Shown piece by piece: positions 2,314 to 63,444 of a DNA stretch of 64,000 nt (positions are counted from its first letter, which is position 1; every line of letters begins with the position of its first letter). The notes under the pieces were generated by a model. That model did no database searches. It was not told the origin of the DNA and saw nothing but the letters and a program-made list of their open reading frames with translations. Both the position numbers and the translations under genes were made by a program. Source of the stretch: Simmondsia chinensis (lineage: Eukaryota > Streptophyta > Magnoliopsida > Caryophyllales > Simmondsiaceae); contig JAGTTD010000001.1 in NCBI GenBank assembly GCA_018398585.1, positions 19,485,750 to 19,549,749 on the forward strand. The letters are read 5' to 3'.

Positions 2314-2716
2314 TGTTATGAATGCGAGAATCCAAGGCATGTGCGGGTCAAGGTTGTGAACTGTGTTCAGTTGCTGAGCAATGCTGCTGCTGTCAGTTGC
2401 TTCCAAAAGGCTTTAGAAGTTAGTTGTTAGATATTTTTAATATGCTTTAGATATTGTTGTAAATTCGTTAGTTGTGATGTCTAGATCCAATGTATTGGCT
2501 CATATCATGTAAGTAGTATAAGTAGGAGGCTCTAGTTTTTAATTCACAACTTTGATGAATGACAAATTGATATCTTTTGATATCTCTCTACTTCTCATCC
2601 CCTTTCACTTCTTTCTCTCATCTAACTCTCTCTATTTTCTCATCTCCTTCACTTCTTCCTCATCTCATATTCTCTTTATCTTAGCTTACGTTTGTGATTC
2701 GATCACGATCGTAACA
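2314..2716 (+). repeat. Element B 5' LTR
   Basis: It starts TGTTATGAATGCGAG and ends GATCGTAACA, and has the same 403 bp length as the copy at 6956-7358. A weak TATA-like TATAAGTA lies near 2517-2524. The CT-rich tail (about 2586-2680, repeated TCTCATCTCC-like words) is shared with the LTRs of unrelated families in this window. Confidence 0.93.
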
Positions 2717-2718
2717 AT

Positions 2719-2731
2719 TGGTATCAAAGCC
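2719..2731 (+). other. Element B primer-binding site (tRNA-iMet type)
   Basis: TGGTATCAAAGCC begins two bases after the 5' LTR end. It matches the usual plant initiator tRNA-Met complement TGGTATCAGAGC with one change (G to A). Confidence 0.9.
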
Positions 2732-3729
2732 TTGATTTGGCTCCGAATCAAGCTCATATCTGAAAAAAAAAATTACAAAATCTAATTTATTGCATTGCAA
2801 TTAATCAATAAAAGCAATTGTGATACAAATTAGTTCAGATTATGTTGATCAGAATTCAGTTCTGAAGTCTGAAATCGAAAGGTGGCGGTTACTGCATTAG
2901 TGACTGCAAGTGCTTGAAAATTGCTTTCGGTGGGGATAAAATCGATTGAAATACATTGAGGAAAGGATAATTGATCAGTAGTTGTTGACTACATTCAACA
3001 TTAGAGGTGATTCATAGTGAATTCAGTAGATTCGATCAAGCAATTGCTGCTGAAGTTGAGTGCTGAGCAAAGCATTAGTTGAAGATTGAGCTTAATTATT
3101 CTTAATCAATCATTCATCTGATCGGTTGGAGAAGAAGTTAAAAGTGAGCTAATTGATCCACATTGCACTTGATCTTAATCAAAAGATCAGAAACAAGCTG
3201 CATTGAGGTTAATTCTGATTCTACAATTCATAAGTTGAGGTTGAGGTAAAGGTTTCTGAACTTCAGGTTGCAATTTGTTGAGAATTTGTGTTTGTTGTTG
3301 AATTGTGATGAAATTGTGTTGATAAGCATAGAAGTGGTGAGAATTCATCGAATTTGCGTTTGATTCTTAAGAATTATATGTTATTGTGTGGAGAATTGCT
3401 TGGGCAAAAATCTGACAGCGAAGAGCGAAATCTGACAGTGAACTTAGAAACAAAAGAGTTGGAATCCGATTTCGTTCATGAAGATTGTTTGAGTATTGTG
3501 TTGAGAACTTGATTGCAAGTTAGAGTCGAGCTTAATTCAGAAGTGTAAGTCGAATTACTCAACTAACATTGCGGTTAGGGTTTGTTCGAGTTTCCTCTGT
3601 TCAAAGTTCGTTAGTTAGGGTTTGGAATCTGCGGTGATTCTTAAATCTGATCTTGAGTTAACAATTTGTGCTGCTGTTAATTCGAAAATCATTCAGATTA
3701 ATTCACAGTGTGAAGTTTAAGAGTGAATT
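2732..3729 (+). other. Element B untranslated leader
   Basis: About 1 kb of AT-rich leader between PBS and the long ORF. No convincing coding frame is visible. It is similar along its length to the leaders of C (8897-9936) and D (28052-26977, minus strand), for example a shared stretch around 2968-3010 about 'ATTGATCAGTA...GTTGA'. A leader this long may contain packaging signals, but that is inference. Confidence 0.7.
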
Positions 3730-6681
3730 ATGGATGGTAGGGATGCAACAGATCCGGATTGGATTATGAATGCATATTGTGACAATAAGATGAAGACAAT
3801 GCTTGATCAACTCAAGCAATCTAATGCTAAATTGATACAACAAATGAACCAGCAAATCAATGTGAAGATTGATCAGCAAGCTCAACCGATTGAAGTGAAA
3901 TTTATGCAGCAACTTGAAGTGAATTTCGCTGAGATTCGAGAACAATTTAGAAGGCCAATTTCTCCTGCTGTGAATCTGCGTTGTTCATCTCATCAGTTTG
4001 ATGGTGCGGGGGTTCTTGATGTTAATGAGTTTCCGGAGCTAGTATATAGCGTTAAACAACAAAAGTTCAATGTTAAGCAAAAAGAGAAAGTGGAATCTGT
4101 TGCCGTTGGGGATGAACTCGTCCCCGAGAATGCCGAAATTGATGAAAACAAGCTAGAAGAACCTGAGTTTGAACAAGATGATCCTTATGAAGACTCGTGA
4201 CTAGAGTTGGAGTATCTTGTTGTTGCTGGGGCACAGTATGACATGCATTCGGAATGGGAATATAATTTCCATGTCATGGGAATGTTAAAGAAAGCAAGGA
4301 GTAAAGCAAAGAGAAGCCAACTCAATGACGCATTGAACGATTTTTGGAAAGCAAAGAAGATTAAAAAGAAGAAGTTGAAGCGTGAGGTGGTGTTTCAGTC
4401 TAGGAGGCTTGATGATCAACAAGAACCAACTCAAGATGATGCTCTTACTGATGATGTCTATGCTGGTATACCAGGTTCAGATATGTCTGTTGGTATACAT
4501 GGATTGGTCACAGCAGAAATTGTGGTTCCAACTGAAAAACTAGATGCCATTGCCGAGACATCACTGAAAACATCTCCAAACCTGTTAAGTATTATTCCAT
4601 TGCCAGCTTATATGCAGAATCGAAGCACTTACTTTGCTGAGCAATGTCATTCTGTTAGAAAATCAATTGTTGTTGCTATAGTGTCATCAAATACAGAGCA
4701 GGGTGTGTGTCAGTTTACTTTTGGGCATGCTCGAGTGTTAACTTGGGACCAGAACAACATCATCTGGGATGCTTTGCAAGGCCTCTTGTGTTGGGTGAAT
4801 GATTACGAATGTATAGTGGCTGAAATGCACTATCGGCATGCCGATCGGCAAGTTCGGAATGATCTATTTCTTCATTTGAGTAGAGTTGTGACTTATCCAA
4901 GTGCAAGTTCTTATGATAAGTTGCCCCCTAATCCGGTAGAAGACTCTCAAGACTATATGAAGCTAAGAGGAGTCAAATTTTTGCTGAAAAGATGCACTCG
5001 AGCTGCAAGAGTGCGCCTCAAGGTCCACAACAAACAAAGCTGGGTTCCTTTGCAAGCAATTGAGCTGAAGGTTTTGTACCAAGGTTGTAATGTGGGAAGA
5101 CAGATCTCTGATCAGATCCACATTAGTACCATAGGTGATTTAAATGATATAGTTGATGATGGCAAGTCCTTTAAACCGGTAGGGGATGAATCATAAGTGA
5201 TTGGAGAAGCTTGGCAACAGGTGCTGCTGTGTGATGATGAAAAGTTCGGTGTCAGTGCAAGCGTTAGTGAAAAAATGGTAGAGGCTGTGGGTCATGATGA
5301 GGTTAACATCAAAGCAAGCTTTGAGGGAAAGGCTTATACATGTTACAGGCTACAAAATTCAGATCTCGACATTGAAGTCTCAATTGTTCCGAAATTGGTG
5401 TGGTTTCGGTTCAAACACAAGCATCTCCTTGAAGGGATGGTAGTTGTTGTTAGTTGGTGGCTTAAGGATATGCTGGGTTGCTGGTATGGCCACACAGCTA
5501 GTGAAAAAAGCCTAGTAAAGACAAAGATGATGGCATTTGGAAATTGGAACACACATGGATTGAAACTTGCTGATCAGATTCAGAATCTGAACATATTTGT
5601 TATGATCTGCTGTGGTGGATTTGAATGGAAAAATCATATGCATAAGCTTCAATATTTCCTTAACGTTTGGATGGAAATGATCCAGGCAAGATTGAGGAAA
5701 ACTCAAGCTCAAATCAGAGTAAACATAAGCAGGGTAGTTGGAGACAGATCAGATCTAATTTTGATGCAGTTTACATCTGAGCAAGAGTTCTTTTGGTGTC
5801 TTCATTTGTTATATTTGTTATTGATGCTTGTGGTGGTTGACAAGGAAGCAAAGCTTGATCAATTGAGGCATATTTTGTGGTTGGATGAGCATGGAATCCT
5901 TTCACTACAAGCTGCTGAAAATTCTGAGGAAATTCCAATCCTTTCATTGTCAGAAGTGAAAGAGTTGTTCAGAGTGAGAGTGGTTGGTGCTATTAAGGCT
6001 TTGGGAAGATGTAGTGACTTGTTTGCATCGAGAAGCTTCCATATGGCCAGAAATCGTGCTGAAATTTGGCAGTATGTGATGCGTCGGGGTAGCACTACTG
6101 CAATGTTGAGTTCTGCAGCACATCAGGTTGAATCGAAAGGCAATCAAGAGTTTGTTGAGCTTGGTCAAAGATGGTTTAGTAAGTGGATGTTTAAGCAATA
6201 CAAATTTTGGATAAGATCCAAGATGAAGGAGTTCCAGCTGCAATTTTATGGGATTTCAACTTGTGTTGTCACTAAGGTCATGATATGGGGTTGTTTGGGC
6301 TGTAATTGGGCACTTCTTCAAGTTGATATTGATCCTTGGACTTCTTGGTTTGAGTTGGGAAGGCCTTATGAGATGTTTCAGGTCTTAATATGCAGTTTAA
6401 TGGGTTTTAAGACATTTAAATTCGGTTATGCAGCATCTGTCAAGAAGAATTACCGAGTTGTTGCTGCTCTGTAGCAATGTCAGTCCTTGAGCTGTATTAT
6501 TTGCATCTAAAAGTGTCTTAGATGGGTTGTGAATGTTTGGTTTGATCAGTGCAGACCCCCTGAAGAGGGTTATACATTCAAGCACAAACATTTTGTCCTA
6601 ACCAGGGACATACTTGTGAATCTACTGCAATTCGGAGTCAGTTCAGCATGGGTTCGTTTCAGTTACAACAGATTTCAGTAG
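3730..6681 (+). pseudogene. Unknown long retrotransposon ORF (B copy), about 980 codons with in-frame stops
   Basis: I do not recognise this protein. One frame runs from ATG 3730 to 6681, interrupted only by TGA 4198, TAA 5194, TAG 6472 and TAA 6508. The TAG 6472 stands where the C copy has CAG. Layout: residues 1-80 a Gln-rich coiled-coil-like segment with QQLEVNFAEIREQFRRP, close to the gag N-terminus of element G; about 120-160 an acidic block (NAEIDENKLEEPEFEQDD); about 190-240 a Lys-rich block (KKIKKKKLKREVVFQ); about 425-440 a basic patch (ARVRLKV); about 630-650 EWKNHMHKLQY; about 690-710 a hydrophobic run WCLHLLYLLLMLVVV that could be a short membrane helix; and two WF-x-x-x-RP-x-E motifs (6343-6372, 6538-6564). 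No catalytic motif of pol is present. Homologous blocks occur in C and D and more weakly in E, so this is a family trait, not chance. Frame and homology are seen; function is unknown. Confidence 0.8.
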
Positions 6682-6955
6682 TACCAGTTGCAGTACGAAT
6701 TGGTCCTTGATTTGCGCGGATTACATACTTGTTCTTGCTGTTGTTTGATAGTGCAGGGCAGTCAGCGCATTCAAGCTATCTTCTATTGCACAATAAGTGA
6801 TTTTCAAGTTCAGACGGGTGCTTCAGATGTCCTTCAGCTGCTGATTTCAGCAAGGAGTCCAATACTTCAGCTATCTTTTGCATAAGTTGAGTAATCTACA
6901 TTATTCCAACTCTCTTCCATTATTGAGGACAAGAATGTTTTCAAGGAGAAGGGAT
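6682..6955 (+). other. Element B 3' untranslated tract with hairpin and polypurine tract
   Basis: A short tract after the last stop of the long ORF. It ends with an imperfect inverted repeat CATTATTG / AGGA / CAAGAATG at 6918-6937 and the purine tract AAGGAGAAGGGA at 6943-6954, immediately before the 3' LTR. The coding frame may really continue closer to the purine tract; the D copy suggests this. Confidence 0.7.
6918..6937 (+). other. Pre-PPT hairpin, element B
   Basis: Arms CATTATTG and CAAGAATG around loop AGGA: eight potential pairs with one mismatch, about 20 bp upstream of the 3' LTR. Confidence 0.6.
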
Positions 6956-7358
6956 TGTTATGAATGCGAGAATCCAAGGCATGTGCGGGTGGAGGTTCTG
7001 AGCTGTGTTCAGCTGCTGAATAATGCTGCTGCTGTCAGTTGCTTCCAAAAGGCTTTAGAAGTTAGTTGTTAGATATTTTCTATATGCTTTAGATATTGTT
7101 GTAAGTTGGTTGGTTGTGATGTCTAGATCCAATGTATTGGCTCATATCATGTAAGTGGTATAAGTAGGAGGTTCTAGTTTGTAATTCACAACTTTGATTA
7201 ATGACAAATTGATATCTTTTGATATCTCTCTACTTCTCATCCCCTTTCACTTCTTTCTCTCATCTAACTCTCTCTATTTTCTCATCTCCTTCACTTCTTC
7301 CTCATCTCATATTCTCTTTATCTTAGCTTACGTTTGTGATTCGATCACAAACGTAACA
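6956..7358 (+). repeat. Element B 3' LTR
   Basis: 403 bp, starting TGTTATGAATGCGAG and ending AAACGTAACA, nearly identical to the 5' LTR by eye. It is followed by the TSD GATGC and then by the resumed RT/RNase H frame of element A. Confidence 0.93.
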
Positions 7359-8390: not shown

Positions 8391-8881
8391 TATTATGATT
8401 CTCATAATAGGGGGCATATGAAATAGAGTATAAATGTAATAAGGTGTTGAATCTAGCCGATTGAGTTATATTAACTAGTTGATATTGTAATTAGAATAAG
8501 TCTTGATGTAATTAGTAGCTTAAGCTTTGGTTAAGTCATGTAATAAGTGAAGTCTAGAGCTCACTGGTCAATGCCGGTCATTAGTGGCGGCTAGTTAGTT
8601 AGTTGTTGGTTGAGTCGGTTAGTCCATGTGTCTTGGATCATTGTATCTCTAGATACTTTAGACTTAGCCATCCTAAAGGATTAGTACTATAAATATGTAG
8701 AGCCACTCTTGAAGAGCTCATAACTTTGATGAATGAAAATTGATATCTTTGATATCTCTCTCTCTTTACTTCTCATCTCCTTTCACTTCTTATCTTATCT
8801 AAACTCTAAATTCTCTCCTTATCTCATACTCCCACTATCTCAACCTAGGTTAAGATCTAAGAGTAATCTTGAATCTTAACA
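8391..8881 (+). repeat. Element C 5' LTR
   Basis: It starts TATTATGATTCTCATAAT, so the canonical TG is mutated to TA; the 3' copy has TGTTATGATT. It ends GAATCTTAACA. The length of 491 bp equals the reconstructed 3' LTR. A TATA box TATAAATA is at 8688-8695. Confidence 0.92.
8688..8695 (+). promoter_or_regulatory. TATA box in element C 5' LTR
   Basis: TATAAATA about 195 bp before the LTR end, followed by a CT-rich stretch. This is a typical U3/R arrangement; the promoter role is inferred. Confidence 0.55.
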
Positions 8882-8883
8882 AT

Positions 8884-8896
8884 TGGTATCAGAGCC
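8884..8896 (+). other. Element C primer-binding site (tRNA-iMet type)
   Basis: TGGTATCAGAGCC two bases after the LTR, a perfect match to the plant initiator tRNA-Met complement. Confidence 0.92.
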
Positions 8897-9936
8897 TTGA
8901 TTTGGCTTCCGAATCAAGCTCTAAATCAGAAAAATCACAAAATCTGATTGATTGTGTTGCAATTAATCAACAAAAACAGTTTGATACTGATTTAGTTCAG
9001 TTTTATGTGATCAAGAATTCAATTCTGAATTTTGATCGTGAAGAGCTTTGTGTATTGCCTTACTGATCAGCAGGGCCTGGGAGTTGCTTTTGGTTGGGAT
9101 AAAATTGATTGGATTACATTCAGAAAAGTATAATTGATCAGTATTTGTTGATTACATTCAACATCAAAGCTGATTCAGATTGAGTTCAGTAGAGTTGATC
9201 AAGCATTAGCTGCTGTAGTTGAGTGGTGAAGCAAAGCATTAGTGGCTGAAGTTGAGTGCTGAAGCATGATCGAAATTGATCAAATAATCACTGGATTAGT
9301 TGGAGAAGAAGTTAAGTGAGCTATTGATCAACATTATAATTGATCATAATCAAAAGATCAGAAACAAGCTGCATTGAGGTTAATTCTGATTCTACAATTC
9401 AGTAACTGAGGTTGAGGTAACGGTTTCTGAACTTGAAGTTGCAATTCGATGAGAATTTGTGTTTGTTGCTGGTTTGTGATGACATTGTGTTGATAAGCAT
9501 AGAAGTGTTGAGAATTCATCAGAATCTGCGTTGATTCTTAAGAATTATATGTTATTAAGTTGAGATTTGCTTAGGCGAAAATCTGACATTGAACTGAGCA
9601 CAGAAAGTGTTGAAATTCGACTTCGTTCTTGAAGGTTGTGGTGAATCGTGTGTTTAAATCATCACTACAGACAGGAATTGAACCTATTTCAGATTCTTAG
9701 TCTGAATTATTCAAGAAAGCATCGCAGTTAGGGTCTGTTCGAATTCTCTATGTGCGAAATCTGCGTATTAGGGTTTGTATCAGTGGCGATTGTGGAACCT
9801 TTAGTAAGTGATTATTTTCTGCGAACGAAGGAGTATAATTTCTTTAAGCAATCATTGGTTGAAGTGATTCGAATCGAATTTTGTTCCCCTGCGAACTGAG
9901 CTGTTCCAGATCGAAGCATTGTTTTTCATTGCAAAT
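8897..9936 (+). other. Element C untranslated leader
   Basis: About 1 kb, AT-rich, with no supported gene. It is homologous to the leaders of B and D (shared words about TTGATCAGTA, GAAACAAGCTGCATTGAGG and GTGTTGATAAGCATAGAAG). It ends at ATG 9937 in the context GCAAATATGG, also seen at the gag start of K. Confidence 0.7.
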
Positions 9937-12852
9937 ATGGCTGGTATGGATGGTGATGGCTCTTGTCAATCAGTAATGAGTGATTATTGAGAGAAAATAA
10001 AGCATGAATGGAGGCAAGAACGAGAGGAGTTCTGGCAGAAAATGAAATAGGCATGGGACGAAGAGCTATAGCAAATTTTTGATCGGCAGTCTTCAACTCA
10101 TCAGTTTACAAACATCAATCGAGATGTTGCTGGTGTTCTTGATGCAAATGAGTTCCCTGAGGTAAGGGATAGCGTTATACAACAAGAGTTCAATGCTGAG
10201 CAAAATGAGAAGGTTAGAGTGGGATCGGTTACCGTTGAAGATGAAGTAGACCATGATAATGCCGAAATTGATGAACACGGGTTAGAGGAATCTGAGTTTG
10301 AGCAAGATGATCATTATGAAGACTCTTTGCTAGAGTTAGAGTATTTTGAAGATGATGAGCTACAGCATGACATGCTTCCGGAATGGGAATACGATTTTCA
10401 TGTCAAGGGAATGATAAAGAAAGCAAAGAGTAAAGTGGAGAGGAACCATCTAAATGAAGCATTGAAAGATTTTTGGGGTAAAAAGAAGATTACAAAGCCG
10501 AAATTGAAGCAGGAGGTTGTGTTTCAGCCTAGGATGCTTGATGATCAACAAGAACTAACTCAAGATGCTGATTTTACCGATGTATATGTTGGTATAGAAG
10601 GTTTAGATATATATATCTTTGATTTCAACTGAAAAACTTGATGCTACTGCTGTAATATCATTGAATACATCACCACATCTGCTAAGTATTACTCTATGGC
10701 AAGCTGATATGCAGAATCGAAGCATATTCACTACTAAACAATCTCATTTTGTTGGGAAAGTTGATGTTACTACTGTAGTAACAATGAAAGCACCACAAAA
10801 TGTGTTAAGCACTTCTCCAAGGCATCTTGATATTCGAAATCAACATTTGATTTGTGTTGGTAGTAATGTAATTGATACATTGCAAGGTTCTTGGAGTGGA
10901 GAAACGTTGTATTCAAATATACATTCTTATGACGAGTTGCCTCCTTATCCGGGAGATTATGTTCAAGCTAATAGGAAGCTTAAAAGAGCCTATTTTTTGC
11001 TGAAAAGAATTAATCAAGTTGCGAGAGTGCGTTTCAAGGTTAAACAAAGGCGAAGCCTTGTGTCTGCGCAAGTAATTGAGTTGTTGGAGGTGTATAAATG
11101 TAGTAATGTGCTGGAACAGATTTCGATTCAGACCAAAACCAGTACAATAGGTGCTTTAACTGATGTAGTTGATATTGGAAGACCCCCTGATGCCTTGAAG
11201 GAGTCTGGTTACTGCAATTGGGTTGGAATGACAATGCTGGACGGTAATGAGGCAAGTGTATTGAGTTTATTGACCTTCAAATTCAGTCTGTGCAATTATC
11301 GAGCTATGTGCAGAGAACAAGCTCCATTAGTGCAACTAAATGTGAGTCCTCTTGAAGTTATGAGGCTTGGTGGTTGGGTTGATTTTGGAATGCAAAAGCT
11401 TTTGGCCTGGAATTCAGACCTGTTGCAGTATTGGAGCATATTAAAGAATTATGGCTCATCTGTGATCTGTTGTGGGAGTTCTGTATGGAAGAATTAGAGA
11501 CACAAGCTTCAGTATTTCTTGAATGTTTGGATGAAGGAGTACAACAAGAAAACAAGATCAATTCTAGCTGAAAGTATTTTACAATTCAGCATATTCGAGC
11601 AGGACAGATCTCCTCTGGTTCTGAATTTAATCTCAGTAACTCTGAATTGTCATATGTGTCCTAATTTGATGTACATTCATAAGTTCGTTGACAAGAAAGC
11701 AAAGCTTGATCAATTGAGGCAAATTGGGTGGCTGGATGAGCTTTGGATCTAGGAAAGTCTTGAGAACAGGCTGGAAGGTGTGAGCTGCAGCATTAACAAT
11801 GTCGATTGGGATGTTTTGGGAGTCCAAGTTATGACATTGTGTTGTTGGCATTCAACAATGGGTTATGAATTCTTAGTTTTTGTGGACTATGCAAGCGTTT
11901 GGGAGGAAAAGGCTGAGGCTTTCAGATCTTACAAGGTCATAATCAAGATTCAAGGCATTGATGTATTAAAGGCTGCGAAATTCATTGGAGAATTACAATT
12001 CCTTCATTGTCAGCAGTAAATGAGTTGTTTAGATTGAGTGTGGTTGGTGGTATTAAGGCTTTGGAAAGATGTAATAACTTGTTCGCATCGAGAAGCTTCC
12101 CTATGGACAAAAATCGAGCTGAAATCTATCATTATGTGATGTACTGGTTTAGCACTATTGCAATATTGAGCTCTGCCGCATATCTTGTGGAATTGGAAAG
12201 CAATCAAGAGTTTGTTGAGCATGATCTGAGGTGGTTTAGTAAGTGGATGTGTAAGCAATACAAATTTTGGATAAGATCCAAGATGAAAGAGTTGCAGCTG
12301 CATTCTTATGGAATTTCCATGTGGTTTGTTACCAAGATCAGGATAAGGGGCTATTTTAGCTGCACTTGGGAATGTCTACAAGCAGAATTTGATATTTGGT
12401 TCACTTGGTTTGAGTTTGGAAGACCACCAGATGAGAGTTCTCCATCTGATGCAAGCTTAGATAGCAGGAATTGGGGCTGGGGTACTTTGAGACCTGCATT
12501 CTATAATGTTTTGCTGCTGCTGCTGCTGCAATATTCCAGTGAGATGGAGGCTCTCTTCAACTGCAAATTCAGCAAGGATTCTACTTGTTTTCATTGCAAT
12601 TCAGAGTTAGTGGTGTTCAATGACTTCATATGTGGTCTATGGGGTATACTGACATTCAAATTCTATTGTGCAGCATACTACAAGTAGAAATTCAGAAGTG
12701 TTGTTGCATTTTATGGTTCTCTGCAGCAAGAAAGAGTTTTGAGCTATATTAACTGCATCATGAGGTGTCGTGGATGTGTTGTTGATGTTGGGATGGTTTG
12801 GTTTGATTAGTGCAGACCTCTTGAAGAGTACAAACAAGAGTCCTACTCATAG
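9937..12852 (+). pseudogene. Unknown long retrotransposon ORF (C copy)
   Basis: This is a homologue of the B ORF, of unknown function. The start ATG 9937 (MAGMDGDGS) is chosen because the D copy begins in the same way (MAGMVDDSP). The N-terminus differs from the B copy, which is gag-like. Conserved blocks: GVLDANEFPE near 10132-10160, NAEIDEHGLEESEFEQDD near 10258-10310, LDDQQELTQDA near 10537-10570, ARVRFKV near 11020-11040, HKLQYFLNVWM near 11500-11530, LGVQVMTLCCWHS near 11816-11852 and WFEFGRPPD near 12409-12434. Stops occur at about 9988, 10051, 10072, 11495, 11750 and 12685 (TAG where D has TGG). Frameshifts lie near 10615 and 12010. It lacks the HYRHADRQV segment of B and D. No pol motif is present. 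Confidence 0.75.
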
Positions 12853-13082
12853 TTCATCACTGGTTCGTTTTAGCTGCAACAAAATTCAGCGAGCTCCAGT
12901 TGCAGTACAATCAGTTCCTGATCTGCATTATATGTGTTCATAGATGTTGCATTTTTGTAGCTGCAGCTCTACAACCAATTTGCTTCATGTTTAGCTCATG
13001 TTTCTTATTGTGGCACTTGTTCTTCAAGCTTCAACTCTTTTCTTGATTCTTAGGGACAAGAATCTTTTAAAGAAGGGAGTAA
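12853..13082 (+). other. Element C 3' untranslated tract
   Basis: The non-coding end of the internal region, with the hairpin at 13045-13064 and a purine tract AAAGAAGGGAG about 13069-13080 before the 3' LTR. Confidence 0.65.
13045..13064 (+). other. Pre-PPT hairpin, element C
   Basis: Arms GATTCTTA and CAAGAATC around GGGA. The outer pair is G-C where G and A have C-G; the loop-closing pair is lost. Confidence 0.55.
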
Positions 13083-13535
13083 TGTTATGATTCGCATAAT
13101 AGGGGGCATATGAAATAGAGTATAAATGTAATAAGGTGTTGAATCTAACCGATTGAGTTGTATCAGCTAGTTGATATTGTAATTAGAATAAGTCTTGATG
13201 TAATTAGTAGCTTAAGCTTTGGTTAAGTCATGTAATAAGTGAAGTCTAGAGCTTAGTAGTCAATGCCGGTCATTAGCGGCGGCTAGTTAGTTAGTTGTTT
13301 GTTGAGTCGGTTAGTCTATGTGTCTTGGATCATTGTATCTCTAGATACTTTCGACTTAGCCATCCAAAAGGATTAGTACTATAAGTATGTAGAGCCTCTC
13401 TTGAAAAGCTCATAACTTTGATGAATGAAAATTGATATCTTTGATATCTCTTTCTCTTTACTTCTCATCTCCTTTCACTTCTTATCTCATCTAAACTCTA
13501 AATTCTCTCCTTATCTCATACTCTCACTATCTCAA
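13083..13535 (+). repeat. Element C 3' LTR, first part (453 bp)
   Basis: It starts TGTTATGATTCGCATAAT and is collinear with 8391-8843. It is broken after CTCAA (13531-13535) by element F. That CTCAA recurs at 19317-19321 as F's TSD, and the remaining 38 bp follow at 19322-19359. Confidence 0.93.
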
Positions 13536-13959
13536 TGTTGCGAATTACTTAATTTTTACTTGTAATGCAATTTTATTTTTAGTATTACTTTTTATTAGAG
13601 TTTATATGATGTAACAACAATTAAAATTGCACTAGTAAAATCGGCTTAAGGCTTCCCACAGCTCGTTCTGCTCACGCGACAGCAGCTGGACCAAAATATG
13701 CAGAATTCAGTTACAGGTTGTTACATTTCAGATGGCTATTGCGGCTGTGCAGCTCAGCTAGGGTTTTTAGATGATTCCTTGTATAAATAGAAAGCTATTA
13801 GTGTAATTTTGATGCATCCAATTAAATGAATACCTATTCCTAAGGGAATTCTCTATTTCTCATCTCGTTTCTCTACTTTCTCATCCCTTTCCCTTCTATT
13901 CTCATCTCATACTATCTTCTACAAGGTTAGCTTATCAAATTAATTTTGGAAAGCTAACA
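13536..13959 (+). repeat. Element F 5' LTR
   Basis: 424 bp, starting TGTTGCGAATTAC and ending AAAGCTAACA, the same length as 18893-19316. A TATA box is at 13782-13789 and a CT-rich tail at about 13850-13920. Confidence 0.95.
13782..13789 (+). promoter_or_regulatory. TATA box in element F 5' LTR
   Basis: TATAAATA preceded by CCTTG. The same box recurs in the 3' LTR at 19139-19146. It is the likely core promoter for the element RNA. Confidence 0.6.
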
Positions 13960-13961
13960 AT

Positions 13962-13974
13962 TGGTATCAGAGCT
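13962..13974 (+). other. Element F primer-binding site (tRNA-iMet type)
   Basis: TGGTATCAGAGCT two bases after the 5' LTR. Confidence 0.92.
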
Positions 13975-14034
13975 GGTTTTATCAATCATCAACATTGATT
14001 GAGCTGTTAAAAAAAAAAAAAAATTCGAGCAAAA

Positions 14035-49838: not shown

Positions 49839-50190
49839 AGATCTTATCATCATGCTTTTCGAGCAATTTTTCAACTGTTTTTAGCTCGTTTGCTTTAATT
49901 GGACTTGAATAACCTGAGAATCAATTGCTTTTGTATTCTAATTGCAAAACATGATCTATTCCAAGGCACTATCTTAATGAAACTGTAGTATTTGAGTTCA
50001 CTAGTTAGCATAGTGTTTTTTACCTTTCTTCCTGATTAAAAGATGCTTAAACTTGAATAGATTACATTAAGATTATCATTTGCACAAGTCTAAAGAAAAA
50101 TATATATATATATAAAAAATATAGAGAAAATGAGGGAGGCATCGCTAGCACCGCTATCCATATAAACATTTTAAGATATGTGCTGCTCAT

Positions 50191-54956: not shown

Positions 54957-55432
54957 TGTTACAAACCGAGAATTCAAGACACGAATTTTAAATGGATGAA
55001 ATAGGCGGGAAAACAATTGGCGGGAAAAGCTGTTAAAATCTGTTAAAAATGCTGCTGGGCTTCTGTTCTGCTGCGTGAGTATGCTGCTGCTGTTAGTTGC
55101 TGTATTTTTTGTGTTTTGGCGCCAAAAATACAATAATAACTCAAATAAGTGTTAGTTAATTCTAGAAGCTTCTAAGTAGATACAATGTAATAGCTTGTGG
55201 TGCTTATAAATAGATCTTTCAGCTGTAATAAGAGGCATTCAATGGAAAAATCTGAACAATATCTCATTTGAGATTTAAACTCTCATTCTCATCTCCTTTT
55301 CCCTTCTTTCTCTCATCTAACTCTAAAATTCTATCTTCTCATCTCGATTTCACATTCTTTCTCATCTCAAATTCTCAACCTATTACGCATTTTATATTAG
55401 TTTACATTCGAGGTTCGAGCCTCAGCGTAACA
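54957..55432 (+). repeat. Element K 5' LTR
   Basis: 476 bp. TATA box at 55205-55212; CT-rich tail about 55280-55375. Confidence 0.93.
55205..55212 (+). promoter_or_regulatory. TATA box in element K 5' LTR
   Basis: TATAAATA within GTGCTTATAAATAGATC; in the 3' LTR the same site reads TATAAATG. Confidence 0.55.
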
Positions 55433-55434
55433 AT

Positions 55435-55447
55435 TGGTATCAGAGCC
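55435..55447 (+). other. Element K primer-binding site (tRNA-iMet type)
   Basis: TGGTATCAGAGCC two bases after the LTR. Confidence 0.92.
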
Positions 55448-56045
55448 TTGATCCGATGGAGTGCGCAATAAAAAAAAAACTCAGAAAATTGATTTCGGTG
55501 CAGATTCAGTGAGAAAAGCAGATCAAAAAAACAACTCAGATTTTGCAGAGTTTTGATCTGGAGAGTTTAGATAAAGCAATTGACAGTGAACATTGTGATT
55601 TTGTTCATCAGAATTTTGATCAAAATGCAGTTCAGCTCAAGTAATTGAAGATCTGAAATTTGTGCTACAATTGCTTCTAATCTTCTCCCTCGGCTTCAAG
55701 AGACCTCAAGTTCAAACTCAACAGCTGGTGTTAGCATTTGAAATCTAATTCCAGATGCTGTAATGCACAATCGGCATGCCGATCGGCAAGTTTCGCATGG
55801 AGAATCTGCTGCAGGTGTTCACGTTTGCTGAAGTTAGAGCAGATATTTGTTATTAAATCAGAACAGCTATAAGACGATTCCATCAAGATCAATTCAGATC
55901 TTGATCTTGAACAATCCAGATCAGTTCAATCGTGTTGTGCAGATCTCATCCAACTGAACTTTTGATCTGAAAAATTCAGCTCAGCTCATTTTTTTCTACA
56001 GCGAAGCAATCAGTCCAGATCGAAGGGTTGTTGTTCATTGCAAAT
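55448..56045 (+). other. Element K leader, with a palindrome shared with B and D
   Basis: AT-rich leader with no gene. At 55764-55793 it carries ATGCACAATCGGCATGCC..GATCGGCAAG, which is the same string that encodes MH(Y/F)RHADRQV in the B and D ORFs. Confidence 0.7.
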
Positions 56046-57895
56046 ATGGCTGATGGTGTAAGAACCCGATCTGGAGCTGGTGGAGCAAATGCAACCAGTT
56101 CAAATTTGGATTTCATTGCTGCAGTTATGGGCCATACAACGGCTGGACCTCAAAATGCGACTAAGGAAGACCTCCACGAGCTGCAGCAAGGTTTTAATCA
56201 GAAAATGGATCAAATTTTGGCATTGTTGATGGACAAAGATGCAAAGGATGCAAAGGTGCAGGACCGATTGCAACAAATTGAAGAAAAGATTGAGCACTTG
56301 CAAGACCGAGTTGATAAACGGGGAGAAAATAATCAAGGCAAGGATCAACCTGTGTCACAAAAATTACGAGCTTTGGAAGAAAGGATTAGTGGCAATGTGC
56401 AACATCAACTTCAAGACATTGATGGCAGGATCGATGCTCATTTAAACTGACAATTGCATAATTTTGAAGAAAGGTTTAATGAGATCAACAAACAAGCAAT
56501 TGATGCACGAGTAAGTGAACAATTGGCATCGTTGCAAAACCAAGCACAAGGGATGAATGTAGGTGCAAATGGAGGAGGATTGTTGCCTTTAAGCTAGATT
56601 TTGAGACCTTCAAACATGCCTCAAACACACACTGCAGTACCGAAGCAAGCTGATGCAGACCCGAGGCAAACCTGTGCAGACCGAGCTCATATTTCAAGGA
56701 ATTTCATCAAAGTTGATGGCCTTCGTGAGCAAGCTAAAGATCCGAGGCATAGCCAAGATGTAAGTATGATTTTTGGACCAAAAGATCGCCCTCCCGATCC
56801 ACCCTATCGACCTGCAGATGCTATTGCTGTACCGAACAGGTTCAACGCTGCAGAAACAGGACACCTTGATCCATTACATAATCCATCTCGATCACGATCT
56901 GTTGATTTCATTGCCAAGCATGATGTTCGAGCTCCCAAAGTTGTCCAGCAGTATAATGTGGGACAAAATGCATCTGAATTCGCTATTAATCGAAGCAATG
57001 AAGTCTCTTATGGTAATGGACGCAATGGATTCCGACAACCTCGAGTTCAACTCGAAAATTTTGATGGGAAGCAACCTCAATCGTGGATACGAAGATGCGA
57101 GCGATATTTCCATTTCTATTCTATTTCCGATGACAAAAAGGTGGACTTGGCTGCAGTTTATCTCCAAGGAGATCACGAAGTATGGTTTTACAGTCTATTG
57201 AGGAGTAACCCCGCGCTTACTTGGGACGGGTTCGTGATCGAGTTATGTGAGCGCTACGGTGATGAAGAAGTGGGTGATGTTTTGGAAAGCTTCAACAAAT
57301 TAACTCAACTCACTACCGTGAAGGACTATATGACGAAATTCGAAAATCTTTGAGCAAGTATGATTACAATCGCACCTCGAGCGCCCGAGTCCTTTTATGT
57401 CTCGAGCTTCATCAGTGGGTTAAAATCGAAAATCAAGAACTTGGTGAAGGCCCTTGAACCTACTTCCTTGTCACAAGCCTTTGCGAAGGCAAATTGATTG
57501 AGGCTTCCGACTTAACAATTCTTGATGGGCCCAAGCATCGAGAAGAGCATTTCCAACATCATCACAAGGGGATTGAACACAGGAAATGGGATGAGCATAA
57601 AGAACCCTGAAATATTGAGAAGGTGTCCCGAAACCGCTGTTTTAGATGCCATCAACCTTATGTACCCGGTCATAGGTGCGACCCTAAGCTTCTCATGATG
57701 GCAAGAGGGGTTGAAGTTGAAGAGGAATTCGAAAGTGATGAAGATGACGCTGAAAATGAGGGGTCCGATCATGACAATGGCAGCGAGGATGAAGTGAATC
57801 CAATAGCTCAAAGAAAGGAATTACACGACCTCACTATGAAATTGTACAAGTCCAAAAAACTCCAGTTTCGGAAGGGCGATGCCTCCAACAAGTGA
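56046..57895 (+). pseudogene. Element K gag
   Basis: Gag starting at ATG 56046 (MADGVRTRSGAGGANATSS), almost as in F (MADGVRTRSGAGGTNITES). The coiled-coil segment LQQGFNQKMDQILALLMDK is at 56182-56240. The capsid block FDGKQPQSWIRRCERYFHFY lies at 57061-57120 and GDHEVWFYSLL near 57169. A zinc knuckle CFRCHQPYVPGHRC lies at 57638-57680, followed by an acidic linker (EEEFESDEDDAENE). It then stops at TGA 57893 without a protease. Stops at 56448, 56596 and 57351 and a frameshift near 57495 break it. The chain ends just where pol would start. A short remnant (LTMKLYKSKKLQF) precedes the end. This is a gag-only design, perhaps produced by internal deletion. Confidence 0.88.
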
Positions 57896-57917
57896 TTTTC
57901 AAGACTCGTTCCCTTTC

Positions 57918-57935
57918 ATTCTTGAGGACAAGAAT
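57918..57935 (+). other. Pre-PPT hairpin, element K
   Basis: ATTCTTG / AGGA / CAAGAAT, seven perfect pairs; purine tract AAGGGCAAGGGAA follows. Confidence 0.65.
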
Positions 57936-57954
57936 AATTTCAAGGGCAAGGGAA

Positions 57955-58431
57955 TGTTACAAACCGAGAATTCGAGACTCGAATTTTAAATGGATGAAAT
58001 AGGCGGGAAAATCAATTGGCAGGAAAAGCTGTTAAAATCTGTTAAAAATGCTGCTGGGCTTCTGTTCTGCTGCGTGAGTATGCTGCTGCTGTTAGTTGCT
58101 GTATTTTTTGTGTTTTGGCTCCAAAAATACAATAATAACTCAAATAAGTGTTAGTTAATTCTAGAAGCTTCTAAGTAGATACAATGTAATAGCTTGTGGT
58201 GCTTATAAATGGATCTTTCAGCTGTAACAAGAGGCATTCAATGGAAAAATCTGAACAATAACTCATTTGAGATTTAAACTCTCGTTCTCATCTCCTTTTC
58301 CCTTCTTTCTCTCATCTAACTCTAAAATTCTATCTTCTCATCTCAATTTCACATTCTTTCTCATCTCAAATTCTCAACCTATTCCGCATTTTATATTAGT
58401 TTATGTTCGAGGTTCGAGCCCGAGCGTAACA
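57955..58431 (+). repeat. Element K 3' LTR
   Basis: 477 bp, nearly identical to the 5' LTR by eye. Confidence 0.93.
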
Positions 58432-58436
58432 CTTTC

Positions 58437-59064
58437 TAGGAATCACTCTAGAGCCCATAGCAGCCCTAACGGGTCTTTTCTATGGGGGAGAAGAGTTGCC
58501 CCTCAATTCTTTTGTTTCTTCAGAAGCTGAATCTTTTGCCTACTCCTGCTCTCTCACAAACCTACCTGGAGGTTATGAGTCTTTTATTAAAACGTTCGTA
58601 TTAAAGGACCTTGACTTTGGGCAAGGTTCCAAAGAGGAGGAGGTGTGCTTCTACTTCTTTTAGTTAACTCAGTCCTTAAGTTTGTTAGGACCATGGCCAT
58701 CAACCTAGCTTTTATTAATGGCCCTCTATCCTTGGGTCCACTGTTTTTGGCCTAGGTATATGGTTACCTCAAAGAAATCATAGCCAAAAAACTATGTTAT
58801 CCACATAGGTGGTCCTTTGTGGCTAGGGCCCAAGCCTATTTCCCTGAGTTGTGCCCCCAGCGGCCCTTACTTATGCTCCCACAGGTGAGGGAGTATCTTA
58901 TTTTTTTGAGTAGTACACTTGCTGTGAGGTCTAACTGCCTTTAGGATGGTCATTTGACCAATTGCCTCGAGCGATTGATGTTCCCATGAGATAGGCGAGG
59001 GACTCAATGGACTCCCTTCAAGAGAAGGAATCTTAGTCCTCAATGGTTCATAAAACTAGACCTT
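58437..59064 (+). pseudogene. PMD pseudogene, part 2
   Basis: Continues part 1 in frame: LGITLEPIAALTGLFYGGEEL near 58437-58500, SYSCSLTNLPGGYESF-like text near 58530-58580, to a TAG at 58661. A shift then leads to GPLSLGPLFLA and VYGYLKEIIAKKLCYPHRW near 58722-58810 and FVARAQAYFPELCPQRP near 58814-58866. TLEPIAALTGL and the W-x-x-x-RAQAYFPEL segment are characteristic of plant mobile domain proteins. The frame is broken at least twice and then interrupted by E. Confidence 0.7.
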
Positions 59065-59519
59065 TGTCATGATCTGAGATTAATCTCGAATCATGAGCTA
59101 GGGATGAAGATCAAAAGAGATCTTAATCTAGGGATTAGGAGAGGTAAGATGAGAAGAGAAGTGAAAGGAGATGAGAAAATAGAGAGTTAGATGAGAAAGA
59201 GAATAATATCCAAGGATATTATATATTAGATTAAAGTTATCTATCATACAAGATAATATCACCTATTTATACTAATTGTTTACTAAATTGAATACATTGA
59301 ATCAAGACTAACTAAAACACTTAAGCTTCATAGAGGAGCCGCCAATCTCAACCTTGCCTTGACTTTAGCACCGACTTAGGACTTTCTAGACTACTACCAT
59401 AAGCTGCCTAGCTATTGAATGCTACTGATCTGCTATTAAAATGATATTGAATTTGTTATATGTTGATTGCACTTATTACTACTTACTCTAGCACTAACTA
59501 TTAAACTTAGGTCAAGGCA
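59065..59519 (-). repeat. Element E 3' LTR
   Basis: 455 bp; minus-strand TATA box at 59271-59264; preceded on its strand by the purine tract read from 59536-59521 (CTTAAGGGGGGAGTA). Confidence 0.9.
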
Positions 59520-59536
59520 ATACTCCCCCCTTAAGA

Positions 59537-59556
59537 GATTCTTGTCCTCAAGAATC
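59537..59556 (-). other. Pre-PPT hairpin, element E
   Basis: GATTCTTG / AGGA / CAAGAATC on the minus strand, eight perfect pairs; the outer pair is G-C instead of C-G, a compensatory change relative to G and A. Confidence 0.72.
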
Positions 59557-59805
59557 GTATGAGAGAGTTTAGACTTGGAAGAACCCTTTTTGTTGTAGAA
59601 GTAGGAGCAGGAGTTGAATTTGATGAACATCCCACTTCAACTTCTGAATGTTGCCTCGATGTCTGCAATTGTTGAAGAATACACTTCCAGGGGTCCAAAT
59701 GTTATAGTCCAAGTAGAATCCTGGCTATAACCTAGGTGAGATAGAGGTTAGATGAGACACTTAATGCTGCAAAAGAAGCTGAAATTCTGAAGGAGGAAGC
59801 AATTG

Positions 59806-61996
59806 TTATGCAATTACTTCTGTTGTGATGTACATCTTGAATCTTGTTATATTCATCTGAAGCACGGCGATGATGCTGTTCACTTGAATATATGTCTTGT
59901 TTCTACTCAAATGTGAGCACACGAGTGTATTGTACTCTTCTGGGGGTTTGCCCAGCTCAAACCACATCAACCAAACTCTAATACTCACTCCATAACATCT
60001 TGTGTCACAATTAATGCAACCAAACATCCACCTCACGAAGTTTTGGTGCACGTTTAGCCGTGAATTTGGCAGCTGAGACTCACAACTCATTGGAATTACA
60101 GTCTTCAATCTGATTTCCATCTATCAAATCAAGCTAATCTCACCCACCATGCTGCTGCTACGCTTACAAAACCAAGCATGGATGTTGTTCAGAATGAACC
60201 TTTCCATTGTGCTTATGTCTCTAAAGCTTCCCAAGGCCTAACTTGCAACTATAATTTTCCACTTATCTCCTGTAACGATGCTGCATTTGAGAGCAAAGAG
60301 AAAATCTATGAACCAGTTACAAAGTCTTTGAAATCTATTAGGCGTTGATACAAAATTGAACTCCTAGGGGGCCACTGCCAGAACTTGAACTCCCAGGGAA
60401 ACCCAACTGATTGGCCTCTGCTTATAGCTCAAAAATTCCAGGCTGTGCACCAAACTTTCAGCTCCTGTTGGTACCGCTCTTTGCTTCCAGTGTTCAAATG
60501 ATTTCTTGCAGCTACATTCATTCACAAGACCAGGTATTCCCTGCTTGTTAAGTCCCAAATCATGTCTCATACGAACTAAACTTGATCTCTTATAAAAGAG
60601 CTTGAGTATGCAAGTGAAGTTCATCAACCCAAGAACCCGCTGGAACTTCAGAATTACTAAGATCATCTCAAGGACTGATATGGTCTTCACTCCTCTTTGA
60701 ATTCCTTCCATGTACCCTGCTAAAAACAGGTTCTGCAGCAGTACAATTCCCCTTCTTTTGACAAAGGTCTTCTCCACCATGTTGTTTCTTCTAAACAAAA
60801 CCCTTTGGTATTTGAATTTAAATTGATCAACTAGCATTCCAACCCTCTTGTAAGCATCCAAGAGAGCTATACTTTGTCCATAAATGCCTGACTTGTATTG
60901 CAGTTTCCACTGCAGATGGGGACTAGCCGAAACAAAGCTTGCCCAAAGTCAAAAACTGGAATACAACTGCACCTTATCAACTTGAATCATACATTCCTCT
61001 AAGGAATCCTTGCTTGTCAGCTCATTAATTCCCTTAATTTCCTCTCCTGGATCAGGAGGAAGCCAATTACCATGGTTTGTACTCGAACAAGCCAAATCTT
61101 CCCTCCAAGAGGGAAGCAGATCCACATGATCCTGCAATTCATCACACTAGCAGTGCACATTGGGAGGATGAACTTCATAGATTCCTTCTCCCGGTTCAAG
61201 AGGAGGTCTCCCACTATTGTTTAAGCTTAGATAAGCCTTCATTCTACTCAAAGAACCTTGCCAGGAGTCCTGATCAAGCATATTTCCTTGCTGAATTGGT
61301 TTAACAACTTGTTCAAAAAAGGAAGATGTCTCACCGTAAGTTGTACTTGATGATTCCACAACAGCAACGTTTTGATCTTTTGCTGAAATTGCCTTATTGC
61401 AATTTGATTTCTTCTTCCTCCTTGCCTTCTTAAGCATTTTGCTAATCCAAGCACCAACCTCAAGTCTATCTAATGACAACATAACCATCTCATGCTTCAT
61501 CAATTCCTTGTTCTCGCTAACATCAAGCTTATCAAGAATCATATTATTTGATTTAAGGCATAAGAAATCTGGAGGTTTTCCTTTGTAAAACAATATTGGC
61601 TTTTCCGTTGCCCTTAAGTTTTTGCTCGAGTAACAATTTCTTGAGGTTTAAGTGGATAAACAAGCCGATCTACTCACCCTGTTGCCGCGTATACTTCACT
61701 CTCAATTGCCTTACGCTCCAAATCTCTATGCGCACATGAGGAACAACTTCATGTGATTCAACTTCTTGCACTTCAAACTTAGAGTTCTGTTAAAAAAAAT
61801 CAGCTGTGGTAGTATCCAAGACGTCCTCAATCACCGATTCATTTGGTTGATCATTCTGACATTCTTGTTCTTGCATTTCTTCTTGCTGAACTCTAGATAC
61901 ATGTTGTTCTACACACATCTCCTGAAGTAGCTGGTACATTTGTGGCATATAGTGATCGAAAATATCTTGAAATGTTGGAAATGTAACGCCATCCAT
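59806..61996 (-). pseudogene. Unknown retrotransposon ORF (E copy), diverged
   Basis: Starts at ATG 61996 (MDGVTFPTFQDIF) with an acidic Gln/Glu-rich N-terminus to about 61793. After a frameshift the rest (61593-59806) is one frame with stops at 61147, 60949, 60364, and two more near 60243 and 60121. Features shared with B/C/D: a Lys-rich block KMLKKARRKKKSN near 61443-61405, a DSWQGSL segment (compare LQGSWSG), WLPPDPGEE near 61065-61035 (compare LPPNPGED), LGVQVL near 60388 (compare LGVQVMTL) and WFELGKPPEE near 59965-59935 (compare WFEFGRPPE). The order is the same as in B/C/D. Similarity is weak outside these blocks. No pol motif. Confidence 0.65.
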
Positions 61997-62972
61997 CCTG
62001 TCCTACTTGCTTGTATACAGCAAGCAGCTAATTCGAAGAGATGGACTGCTATTTATCACAAGCACACTGAATATGTAGTAACTGCAGCACCTTCGATTCA
62101 ATATTCAACTCAATAAACTCGATATCAGCTACTGCTTGTTAAACTGCAACCTACGTACGCAACTTGTACGACACGCACTTGATTTGTGCTCAACAATCGC
62201 AACAGAGTACAAACCCTAACTGACGAACTTCGCGAATCAAGAGAACTCGAACAAAACCCTAACCGTAGTGTTTACTTGAGCAATTCAGACTATGAACTTA
62301 ACTGCAAATTTGACTTCAACACACCATGATCCTCAGAACATGTTAGATTTCTACGATTTCTGATCTTAGTTCACTATTAACTCCACTTTTGGGCAAGTAT
62401 CTACACGATTTCAGATGTTTCGTGTAGAATTGGCTAAAGTCTTGTACTCTTCTATGCTTAACAACACAATTTCCTCCAAAAATCAGCAACAATTGTTCAA
62501 TTCAACTCTTTACACGATTAGTTACTGATTTAGCTCAGTTTCTGTATAAACTGAATTAACAAATGATAATACAGCAATCTTGAAGTTGATCTTGCTCAAC
62601 TATAATCCACACTAGCATCAACTTAAGATGTTTTAATCACATACAGTTCTGGGCTTAAATGTACTCCAAGCAGGAACTGATTATGATCAATGAGCTGCAG
62701 CTAGCTCGCGGTTCTGCTCACATACACAAAAACAAAATTTGATCTCAATCAAGCTCTGAAATTCTAATGCTAAATATCAAATTCAACCTCTTTTTGTTTG
62801 TTTCTCTTTTGCTGATTAATTGCAACCAGGACCAAAGCTTGACACAATACAAATCAGTTTAGTTGAAATATATTCAACTAAATCAAATGCAAAGCATCTA
62901 AAGTCCTTACGCAGCAACAACAAATCAGTTCTGAATTTTCTGAATTAAGAGCTTGATTTGGAATCAAATCAA
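61997..62972 (-). other. Element E untranslated leader
   Basis: About 1 kb AT-rich leader, no gene; general similarity to B/C/D leaders. Confidence 0.65.
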
Positions 62973-62985
62973 GGCTCTGATACCA
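62973..62985 (-). other. Element E primer-binding site (tRNA-iMet type)
   Basis: GGCTCTGATACCA on the plus strand, two bases from the 5' LTR. Confidence 0.92.
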
Positions 62986-62987
62986 AT

Positions 62988-63444
62988 TGTCATGATCCGA
63001 GATTAATCTTGAATCATGAGCTAGGGATGAAGATCAAAAGAGATCTTGAACTAGGGATTAAAAGAGGTAAGATGAGAAGAAAAGTGAAAGGAGATGAGAA
63101 AATAAAGAGAGTTAGATGAGAGAGAGAATAATGTCCAAGGATATTGTATATTTCATCAAAGTTATCCATCATACAAGACAGTGGCACCTATTTATACTAA
63201 TTTTTTACTAAATTGGATACATTGAATCAAGACTAACTAAAACACTTAAGCTTCGTAGAAGAGCCGCCAATCTTGACCTTGCTTTGACTTTAGGACCGAC
63301 TTAGGCCCTTCTGGACTACTACCGTAAGCTGCCTAGCTGCTGGATGCTATTTATCTGCTATTAAAATGCTATTGAATCTATTGTATGTTGATTGCACTCA
63401 TTACTACTTGCTCTAGCACTAACTATTCGACTTGGGTCATGACA
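62988..63444 (-). repeat. Element E 5' LTR
   Basis: 457 bp, on the plus strand TGTCATGATCCGAG...GGGTCATGACA. Confidence 0.9.

Follow-up and report, generated by a model that had tools for sequence, protein, structure and literature searches.

A long orphan frame in non-autonomous Ty3-type retrotransposons of Simmondsia chinensis, possibly kept open for its translation rather than for its protein

Why would a retrotransposon that encodes none of the enzymes for its own movement carry an open reading frame (ORF) of about 900 codons that resembles no known protein? This question is raised by a stretch of DNA from Simmondsia chinensis (assembly GCA_018398585.1, contig JAGTTD010000001.1, positions 19,485,750 to 19,549,749 of the forward strand), hereafter the window, whose 64 kb form, by self-comparison, a nest of plant-type long terminal repeat (LTR) retrotransposons. 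Four of its elements, which we call B, C, D and E, carry a leader followed by a long orphan frame, and a preliminary description had proposed that this family kept a protein of roughly 700-980 codons while amplifying with the machinery of other elements. We favour another account, to which we give slightly less than an even chance: the elements would form a non-autonomous Ty3-type LTR family in which gag-pol was replaced by an orphan frame that is kept open, and whose RNA is translated through most of its length for the sake of stability or packaging. More tentatively still, we propose that the long frame is kept for the act of translation itself, that nearly all of its amino acids are free, and that the apparent gene is a cis-acting stabiliser of its own genomic RNA.

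Architecture of the orphan-frame family

Element B (2313-7358, + strand) is inserted in a Ty3 host element, A, and is bounded by LTRs at 2313-2716 and 6955-7358 that are 95.5% identical; its flanks read GATG(T) and GATG(C), in which a repeat GATG can be recognised by eye. Its leader (2717-3729, +), with the primer-binding site (PBS) at 2718, confirms the leader length of about 1 kb given in the preliminary description and runs into an ORF at 3730-6474 (+) that has premature stops at 4198 and 5194 and nearly unconstrained amino acids. This frame had been described as extending from 3730 to 6681 with only four stops; those four are indeed present, at 4198, 5194, 6472 and 6508, together with a last one at 6679. 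Because anchors to C and D put the natural end at 6472, however, that stop is probably where the ORF ends, and the length of the frame is corrected from 985 to about 914 codons.

Element C (8393-13535, +) has a 5' LTR at about 8393-8881 and a 3' LTR that begins at about 13085, is split by a nested Ty3 element, F (13536-19316, flanked by the repeat CTCAA), and continues at 19317-19359; the flanking repeat of C itself, again read by eye, is GATTC. In the ORF of C (9937-12687, +), the frame is shifted about twice, near 10620 and 11990, and interrupted by about five premature stops. Element D (23361-28555, - strand), with its 5' LTR at 28065-28555 and its 3' LTR at 23361-23851, carries an ORF at 24102-26976 (-) that starts at the ATG at 26976, ends with the stop at 24104 and contains frameshifts near 26810 and 26225, along with premature stops at 26722, 24983 and 24539 and perhaps also at 26835 and 26281, beside the frameshifts. 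D amounts to one and a half copies, the remainder being a partial second copy (28556-30183, -) that consists of a 1.6-kb 3' part of the internal region and, taken with the LTR that it has in common with D, spans 28065-30183. The extra piece diverges from D by 4.0%, a value equal to that between D's two LTRs (4.0%), and looks as if it had been made at insertion or through unequal exchange. Element E (59064-63445, -), finally, has LTRs at 62987-63445 and 59064-59520 that are 89.9% identical, a flanking repeat with one mismatch (by eye), and an ORF stretch at 59806-61647 (-) of 614 codons with six premature stops and a presumed terminal stop.

Across the four elements, the LTRs measure 0.4-0.49 kb and diverge within a pair by 4.5% (B), 4.2% (C), 4.0% (D) and 10.1% (E). 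A PBS beginning TTGGTATC, which we take to match tRNA-iMet, stands at the end of the LTR, a purine-rich tract precedes the 3' LTR, and in all four the frame ends about 250-480 nt ahead of the 3' LTR, at a distance of about 480 nt in B, 395 nt in C, 250 nt in D and 285 nt in E. The LTR pairs, PBSs and purine tracts reported in the preliminary description are therefore borne out, as are target-site repeats for B, C and, with its one mismatch, E; its count of four complete elements has to be revised, with the 3' LTR of C split by F and D comprising one and a half copies. The shared plan and block order that it described hold for B, C and D. Judged by its sequence, E carries only a remote version of the orphan frame: it gives no nucleotide match to the B, C and D ORFs at 1e-20, no NAEIDE, EWKNHMHKLQY or WCLHLLYLLLMLV block was seen in its frame on inspection by eye, and it shares with the other elements only the motifs MLKKARxKxK, LPPxPGE and WxxWFELGKPPE.

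None of ten open pieces of B, C, D and E (0/10) matched a Pfam model above its curated cut-off; the searches returned only sub-threshold noise, with no gag, protease, reverse transcriptase (RT), ribonuclease H (RNase H) or integrase. The same search applied to ten pieces of the Ty3 elements F, G and H and of host elements placed gag, protease, RT, RNase H, integrase or integrase-linked SH3 domains above the cut-off in eight, the exceptions being window positions 1091-1600 and positions 55971-56447 in H, and the reported lack of protease, RT, RNase H and integrase in the family is upheld. In the PDB, D 24984-26225 had no match and B 4201-5193 a single chance match (E 1.4). Protein relatives at E <=0.001 were found neither for B 5197-6471 (3512 candidates), nor for B 4201-5193 (2067 candidates), nor in a profile search with an alignment, A1 (5151 candidates), in a database that may be poor in plant proteins. 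B 2717-6954 had no match in a plasmid collection, and Rfam and tRNA scans found nothing. The clear match to gag or pol that the preliminary description had named among the observations that would speak against its claim is thus missing from the Pfam, PDB and protein searches. Because the elements have no pol, the family was presumably amplified in trans, and the frame together with the missing pol supports the view that a long frame without a known domain was kept during this amplification.

An open frame behind an ATG-poor leader

Between 3727 and 6681, the frame of B contains 5 stops in 985 codons, while the other two sense frames of the same DNA contain 63 and 103. First-order Markov sequences predict 60.4, with a minimum of 39 among 1000 draws. 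D has 3 stops in 708 codons where 41 are expected, and E has 7 in 614 where 37 are expected; these two stretches, like the C pieces, were picked as open, which biases their stop counts low. Less biased is a count along the frame of B in aligned blocks, which were not picked as ORFs; it yields 3 stops in B and 10 in C over 725 codons (B-C), 3 in B and 4 in D over 724 (B-D), and 6 in C and 4 in D over 623 (C-D). One might ask whether the openness is an artefact of composition, of the picking of open pieces or of alignment, with a frame open by chance and blocks that are plain nucleotide homology. The blocks are in fact to a large extent nucleotide homology, and the picking of C, D and E pieces as ORFs does favour few stops; yet the off-frames of the same B DNA are full of stops, the aligned blocks contain few of them, and the loss of ATG from the leader, described below, is an independent signal, and we regard such an artefact as very improbable. 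An antisense frame was also considered as the true gene and rejected, with 35-57 stops.

B, C and D differ from one another at about a third of sites, and at 0.15-0.2 substitutions per site per lineage, neutral drift would be expected to introduce 21-28 stops into 980 codons. This bears on another explanation, in which the frame is a captured or orphan gene under relaxed selection whose protein once mattered and whose late copies are decaying. Such a gene would fit the coding-like composition of B 3730-4560 and an omega of about 0.7, both described below, and has a counterpart in the wheat RLG_Sabrina_NA variants, in which orphan ORFs replace gag-pro (PMC9744471). About 0.2 substitutions per site per lineage should, however, have left at least 20 stops in each lineage; ATG remains scarce in the B, C and D leaders and, less cleanly, in that of E; and the searches for protein relatives did not find a source gene. 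We consider this explanation unlikely.

The stops that are present can largely be accounted for by decay after insertion. In a simulation with an assumed base bias and with rates entered at about half of the LTR divergence, B (980 codons to 6681) is expected to acquire 4.5 stops (95% range 1-9), where 4 premature stops are observed up to 6681 and 2 up to 6474, with 6472 as the likely end; D (705 codons) is expected to acquire 2.4 (0-6), with 2 observed, and E (607 codons) 4.5 (1-8.5), with 6 observed. The simulation covered stretches of B, D and E. The premature stops in these stretches match post-insertion decay alone, which makes it probable that the three elements were copied from open sources; the window itself showed no intact copy. 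Indels in the ORF likewise tend to keep the frame: 15 of 21 non-zero length shifts between ORF anchors are multiples of three, including shifts of 204, 180, 156, 96 and 81, compared with 9 of 25 such shifts in the leader and the end of the LTR, all counted by hand between ungapped anchors in three pairwise comparisons that are not independent. The six non-triplet ORF shifts lie at or near C's and D's own frameshift sites. Zero shifts, shifts crossing the ORF start and shifts past the ORF end are excluded from the ORF tally, which retains one anchor overlapping the start and one overlapping the end of the C ORF.

Upstream of the frame, the leaders of B, C and D contain 4, 6 and 5 ATGs, against expectations of 28.9, 31.0 and 26.5. 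CAT in these leaders and ATG within the ORFs (90 vs 86 in B) both occur about as often as expected. When the three leaders are pooled, ATG is the most depleted (15 vs 86.7) of the 51 trinucleotides with an expectation of at least 15, GTC (11 vs 41.6) and a few others being likewise scarce; because of their common ancestry, the three leaders do not represent independent events. E has 18 ATGs up to its open stretch, where 31.2 are expected, and the leader of H, a gag-only Ty3 element (54957-58434, +), has 6 where 13.8 are expected, but there CAT is also low.

The LTRs show where this depletion begins. ATGs are frequent up to LTR position 247 in B, 341 in C, 305 in D and 290 in E, beyond which no further ATG occurs in the LTRs of B, C and D and two more occur in that of E. 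The motif TATAAATA is found at LTR positions 296 (C), 262 (D) and 250 (E), with a second TATAAAT at 37 in C, and was not found in the B LTR; in C, D and E, the last ATG ahead of the ATG-poor stretch stands 40-45 nt past it. This arrangement fits a transcript that would start there and be scanned to the ORF. Because the frame is open and the B, C and D leaders are nearly ATG-free up to its start, the orphan ORF is very probably translated.

The start of the orphan frame is a copy of a gag start site in C and, less clearly, in D. The start region of C (9905-9943, +), with its ATG at 9937, shares 36 of 39 bases with the gag start of H (56014-56052, gag ATG at 56046), and D shares 25 of 39; B and E, which share 19 and 20, do not rise above what unrelated stretches give. 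Two upstream ATGs occupy matching positions in the leaders of B, C and D, and the first kept one opens a four-codon upstream ORF (uORF), ATG A(A/C)A TTG TGT TGA. In B, a leader box of 24 bases, AAATTGTGTTGATAAGCATAGAAG (3311-3334, +), follows immediately after the ATG (3308) of this mini-uORF. The box recurs within 9464-9505 (+), 27495-27454 (-) and 62490-62449 (-), the copies in C, D and E each differing from B at one base and the E copy lacking the ATG; the leader of E is otherwise mostly diverged from the others, with two other short matches. The box and its uORF may be a candidate regulatory uORF or packaging element.

Constraint on the encoded amino acids

Two marks of conventional protein-coding selection, the scarcity of stops and the frame-keeping indels, are present in the family. 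Two others, an excess of divergence at third codon positions and a ratio of nonsynonymous to synonymous substitution rates (dN/dS, or omega) well below 1, are missing, whereas the gag and pol of two Ty3 elements that served as a control, F (+ strand; gag, RT, RNase H and integrase) and its partner G (37132-42920, -), display them. Divergence at codon positions 1, 2 and 3 amounts to 0.332, 0.326 and 0.328 between B and C, to 0.334, 0.358 and 0.344 between B and D, and to 0.325, 0.291 and 0.319 between C and D. In 12 of 13 segments of 240 nt, the third position exceeds the average of the first and second by no more than 0.04, and in the thirteenth, the last, with 59 sites, by 0.10. With the three codon positions diverging to much the same extent, most of what the shared blocks have in common is nucleotide homology.

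Estimated by maximum likelihood over blocks with 70% identity or more, omega in the ORF frame is 0.64, 0.75 and 0.68 among the B, C and D pairs, with likelihood-ratio values against omega = 1 of 6.3, 3.2 and 6.0; the two off-frames give 0.67-1.16. These estimates exclude codons with stops and drop ungapped blocks shorter than 45 nt, and the stricter runs also drop blocks below 70% identity. The control comparison of F with G gives 0.14 for gag, 0.11 for pol, and 0.07 and 0.13 for two integrase pieces. For B-C and B-D, the replaced residues resemble each other no more closely than they do in one off-frame. Constraint on the amino acids is thus far weaker than on true gag and pol and not safely different from none. 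The preliminary description's claim that the family kept a protein is not supported as it stands by this comparison, in which codon positions diverge equally and omega is not clear of the off-frames; it had itself considered that a dN/dS near 1 without any intact copy would speak against the claim, and the ratios of 0.64-0.75 come close to the first part of this, the sources having probably been open. Because the frame is open and the leader ATG-poor, yet omega lies near the off-frame level, our data suggest that selection acts on the start and the openness of the frame and barely on its amino acids, with the exception perhaps of three short islands.

Several observations weigh against the reading that we favour, beginning with its basis: four related copies in one window, known from their sequence alone, from which RNA decay, translation and mobility are inferred. 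The stops and frameshifts of C lie outside the decay simulation, as do two or three more stops next to two frameshifts in the first third of D. In E, a depletion of ATG at element positions 460-1449 (6 vs 22.6 expected) depends on limits that were picked by eye after the fact, and B lacks the gag-start match. Nor is an open frame a general requirement, because the wheat and barley elements Angela, Surya and Sabrina_B, as described in the parts of the sources considered here, have a degenerate ORF or none and yet amplify well (PMC9744471, PMC5738225).

Other points on this side concern the protein. An omega slightly under 1 allows for some constraint on the protein, and residues replaced between C and D are more alike than in both off-frames. 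The base composition of B 3730-4560 depends strongly on codon position, with chi-square values of 31 and 80 where the null 99th percentiles are 19 and 22, and this leaves room for a captured host gene. The remainder of B falls below the null 99th percentile, as do D, E and one C piece, and the other C piece lies at it (35 vs 34). Codon-position composition is, however, a weak coding test, because, of five gag and pol pieces of F and G, three clear the null by a narrow margin and two fail to do so.

The three short islands belong here as well. They occur in the same order in B, C, D and E, and third positions vary most within them (0.47 vs 0.18 and 0.17 in the C-terminal island; 0.40 vs 0.23 and 0.06, and 0.29 vs 0.17 and 0.08, in the others). 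The C-terminal island, which gives a hint of a functional C-terminus, exceeded a uniform-rate neutral simulation (0-0.01 of 150 runs per setting), the observed identities being counted by hand. These features are what one would expect under the main rival explanation, a protein with working ends, in which short motifs, a basic MLKKARxKxK near the N-terminus, LPPxPGE, and WxxWFEFGRPPE near the C-terminus, would bind RNA and the partner's Gag or another factor, and the long middle would be a free linker. Stops would then be avoided because the C-terminal motif must be reached, and if the C-terminal island is real, the scarcity of stops and the keeping of the frame are explained equally well. Two of the wheat Sabrina_NA orphan proteins are in addition described as resembling viral capsid-formation proteins (PMC9744471).

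Comparisons with the distant element E divide on this point. The amino-acid score of E against B lies at a z of 12.5 above shuffles, with a nucleotide z of 1.0, and the corresponding values are 11.3 and 2.8 against D and 12.7 and 1.8 against the C-terminal C piece; for C 10607-11990, the order is reversed (amino acid z 1.9, nucleotide z 4.6), and two N-terminal pieces give little signal (z 2.2 and 1.2). A second simulation shows that drift at about one substitution per site gives whole-ORF scores like those observed, and the islands were selected for amino-acid identity after the fact. B, moreover, deviates at two of the motifs, with LPPNPVED and WFELGRPYE; the profile search among 5151 candidates gave no relative; and AlphaFold2 returned no usable fold for a 414-residue D piece, with a mean pLDDT (predicted local distance difference test score) of 32 from five sequences only, which makes this weak evidence. 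We consider a spacer of this kind a possible but rather doubtful explanation.

Mechanism, partner elements and known systems

If the frame is kept open for its translation, as we favour, RNA would be made from the LTR, scanned across the leader and translated through the ORF, and would then be packaged, copied and integrated by the proteins of a related Ty3 element. Translation would be needed in cis, for example so that the genomic RNA evades nonsense-mediated decay: by analogy with other RNAs, an early stop would create a 3' untranslated region of kilobases and expose the RNA to nonsense-mediated decay or related quality control, and a frame end close to the 3' LTR is what the avoidance of a long 3' untranslated region would require. 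The protein product would be mostly a by-product, perhaps with three short functional islands. Going by the titles of van der Most 1995 and White 1992, translation or coding capacity reportedly matters for the propagation or accumulation of helper-dependent defective interfering RNAs; these belong to RNA viruses, and the analogy is one of working and not of membership. In Rous sarcoma virus, premature gag stops are reported to lower the unspliced RNA in a Upf1- and translation-dependent manner (PMC2925335). Translation is not always good for an element, because in Arabidopsis the translation of a Copia shGAG RNA can trigger silencing (PMC8892269).

Paired LTRs, a PBS, a purine tract, the absence of pol domains and termini shared with Ty3 elements place the family among non-autonomous Ty3/Gypsy elements. 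The LTRs of B, C, D and E share stretches of 36-118 bp with those of F, G, H or a host Ty3 element at 21940, at 74-89% identity. H, a TR-GAG-like element with LTRs that are 97% identical and a broken gag ORF, is a possible relative of the putative autonomous partner of the family, because its gag start resembles the start of the C ORF and its LTR end resembles that of the orphan-ORF elements. The window also contains the remains of further host Ty3 elements, including A and the one at 21940; B and C are both nested within A, and F within the 3' LTR of C. At its end, the B LTR (2313-2716) is 86% identical over 109 bp to the LTR of the host element at 21940-22294; the same LTR end is 83% identical to that of C over 104 bp and 77% identical to that of D over 172 bp, with one 41-bp piece at 90%. 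The resemblance to the host LTR may reflect partner switching by recombination. Elsewhere in the window, at 50186-51455, lie local repeats of 190-200 bp that are about 79-80% identical.

In some plants, non-autonomous LTR elements account for much of the genome. Among them, large retrotransposon derivatives (LARDs) exceed 4 kb and have LTRs, a PBS and a purine tract but no pol, their LTRs being large (several kb) and their interior non-coding. The family described here resembles LARDs in its length of over 4 kb, its LTRs, PBS and purine tract and its lack of pol, and differs from them in an interior that keeps an open frame behind an ATG-poor leader and in LTRs of less than half a kilobase.

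The nearest parallel is found in the wheat Ty3 elements RLG_Sabrina_NA2-NA8, in which gag-pro is replaced by unrelated protein-encoding segments and which lack RT and integrase, reach hundreds of copies each and have a presumed autonomous partner (PMC9744471). Four of these derivatives encode proteins without homology to other wheat proteins, and two have a capsid-like predicted structure (PMC9744471). Like them, our family has an ORF without known homologues at the position of gag, as judged from the match to a gag start in C and, in part, in D, but not in B or E; the likeness is by description and involves no sequence comparison to Sabrina. The Sabrina_NA proteins are, however, described as short, where here a single family has a frame of about 900 codons, and the codon-level selection analysed here is absent from the Sabrina_NA section that we drew on (PMC9744471). 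Barley relatives of Sabrina have been assigned to the Athila clade (PMC5738225).

TR-GAG elements, for which a new insertion was detected in Arabidopsis ddm1, likewise combine LTRs with a single ORF (PMC8704663). Their ORF is gag (PMC8704663), whereas all ten pieces of the present family lack a gag match. Autonomous plant LTR retrotransposons can also carry additional ORFs without an assigned function, for example Retand TRP28 (PMC11963269, PMC7264820). Those of Retand run antisense in the interval from pol to the 3' LTR, and further ones have been described as env-like and in sense orientation (PMC11963269, PMC7264820); in the present family, a sense ORF takes the place of gag-pol. Among the matches listed in open-licence literature, considered mostly by title and the start of the abstract, no paper reports this combination for an LTR element.

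The literature covered, in the parts considered here, offers no explanation of why some non-autonomous LTR elements keep orphan frames. If openness rather than sequence is what is selected, a conserved ORF need not mean a functional protein in such elements, and annotation pipelines would call false genes from them. RNA quality control would then be a force that shapes the parasites of retrotransposons.

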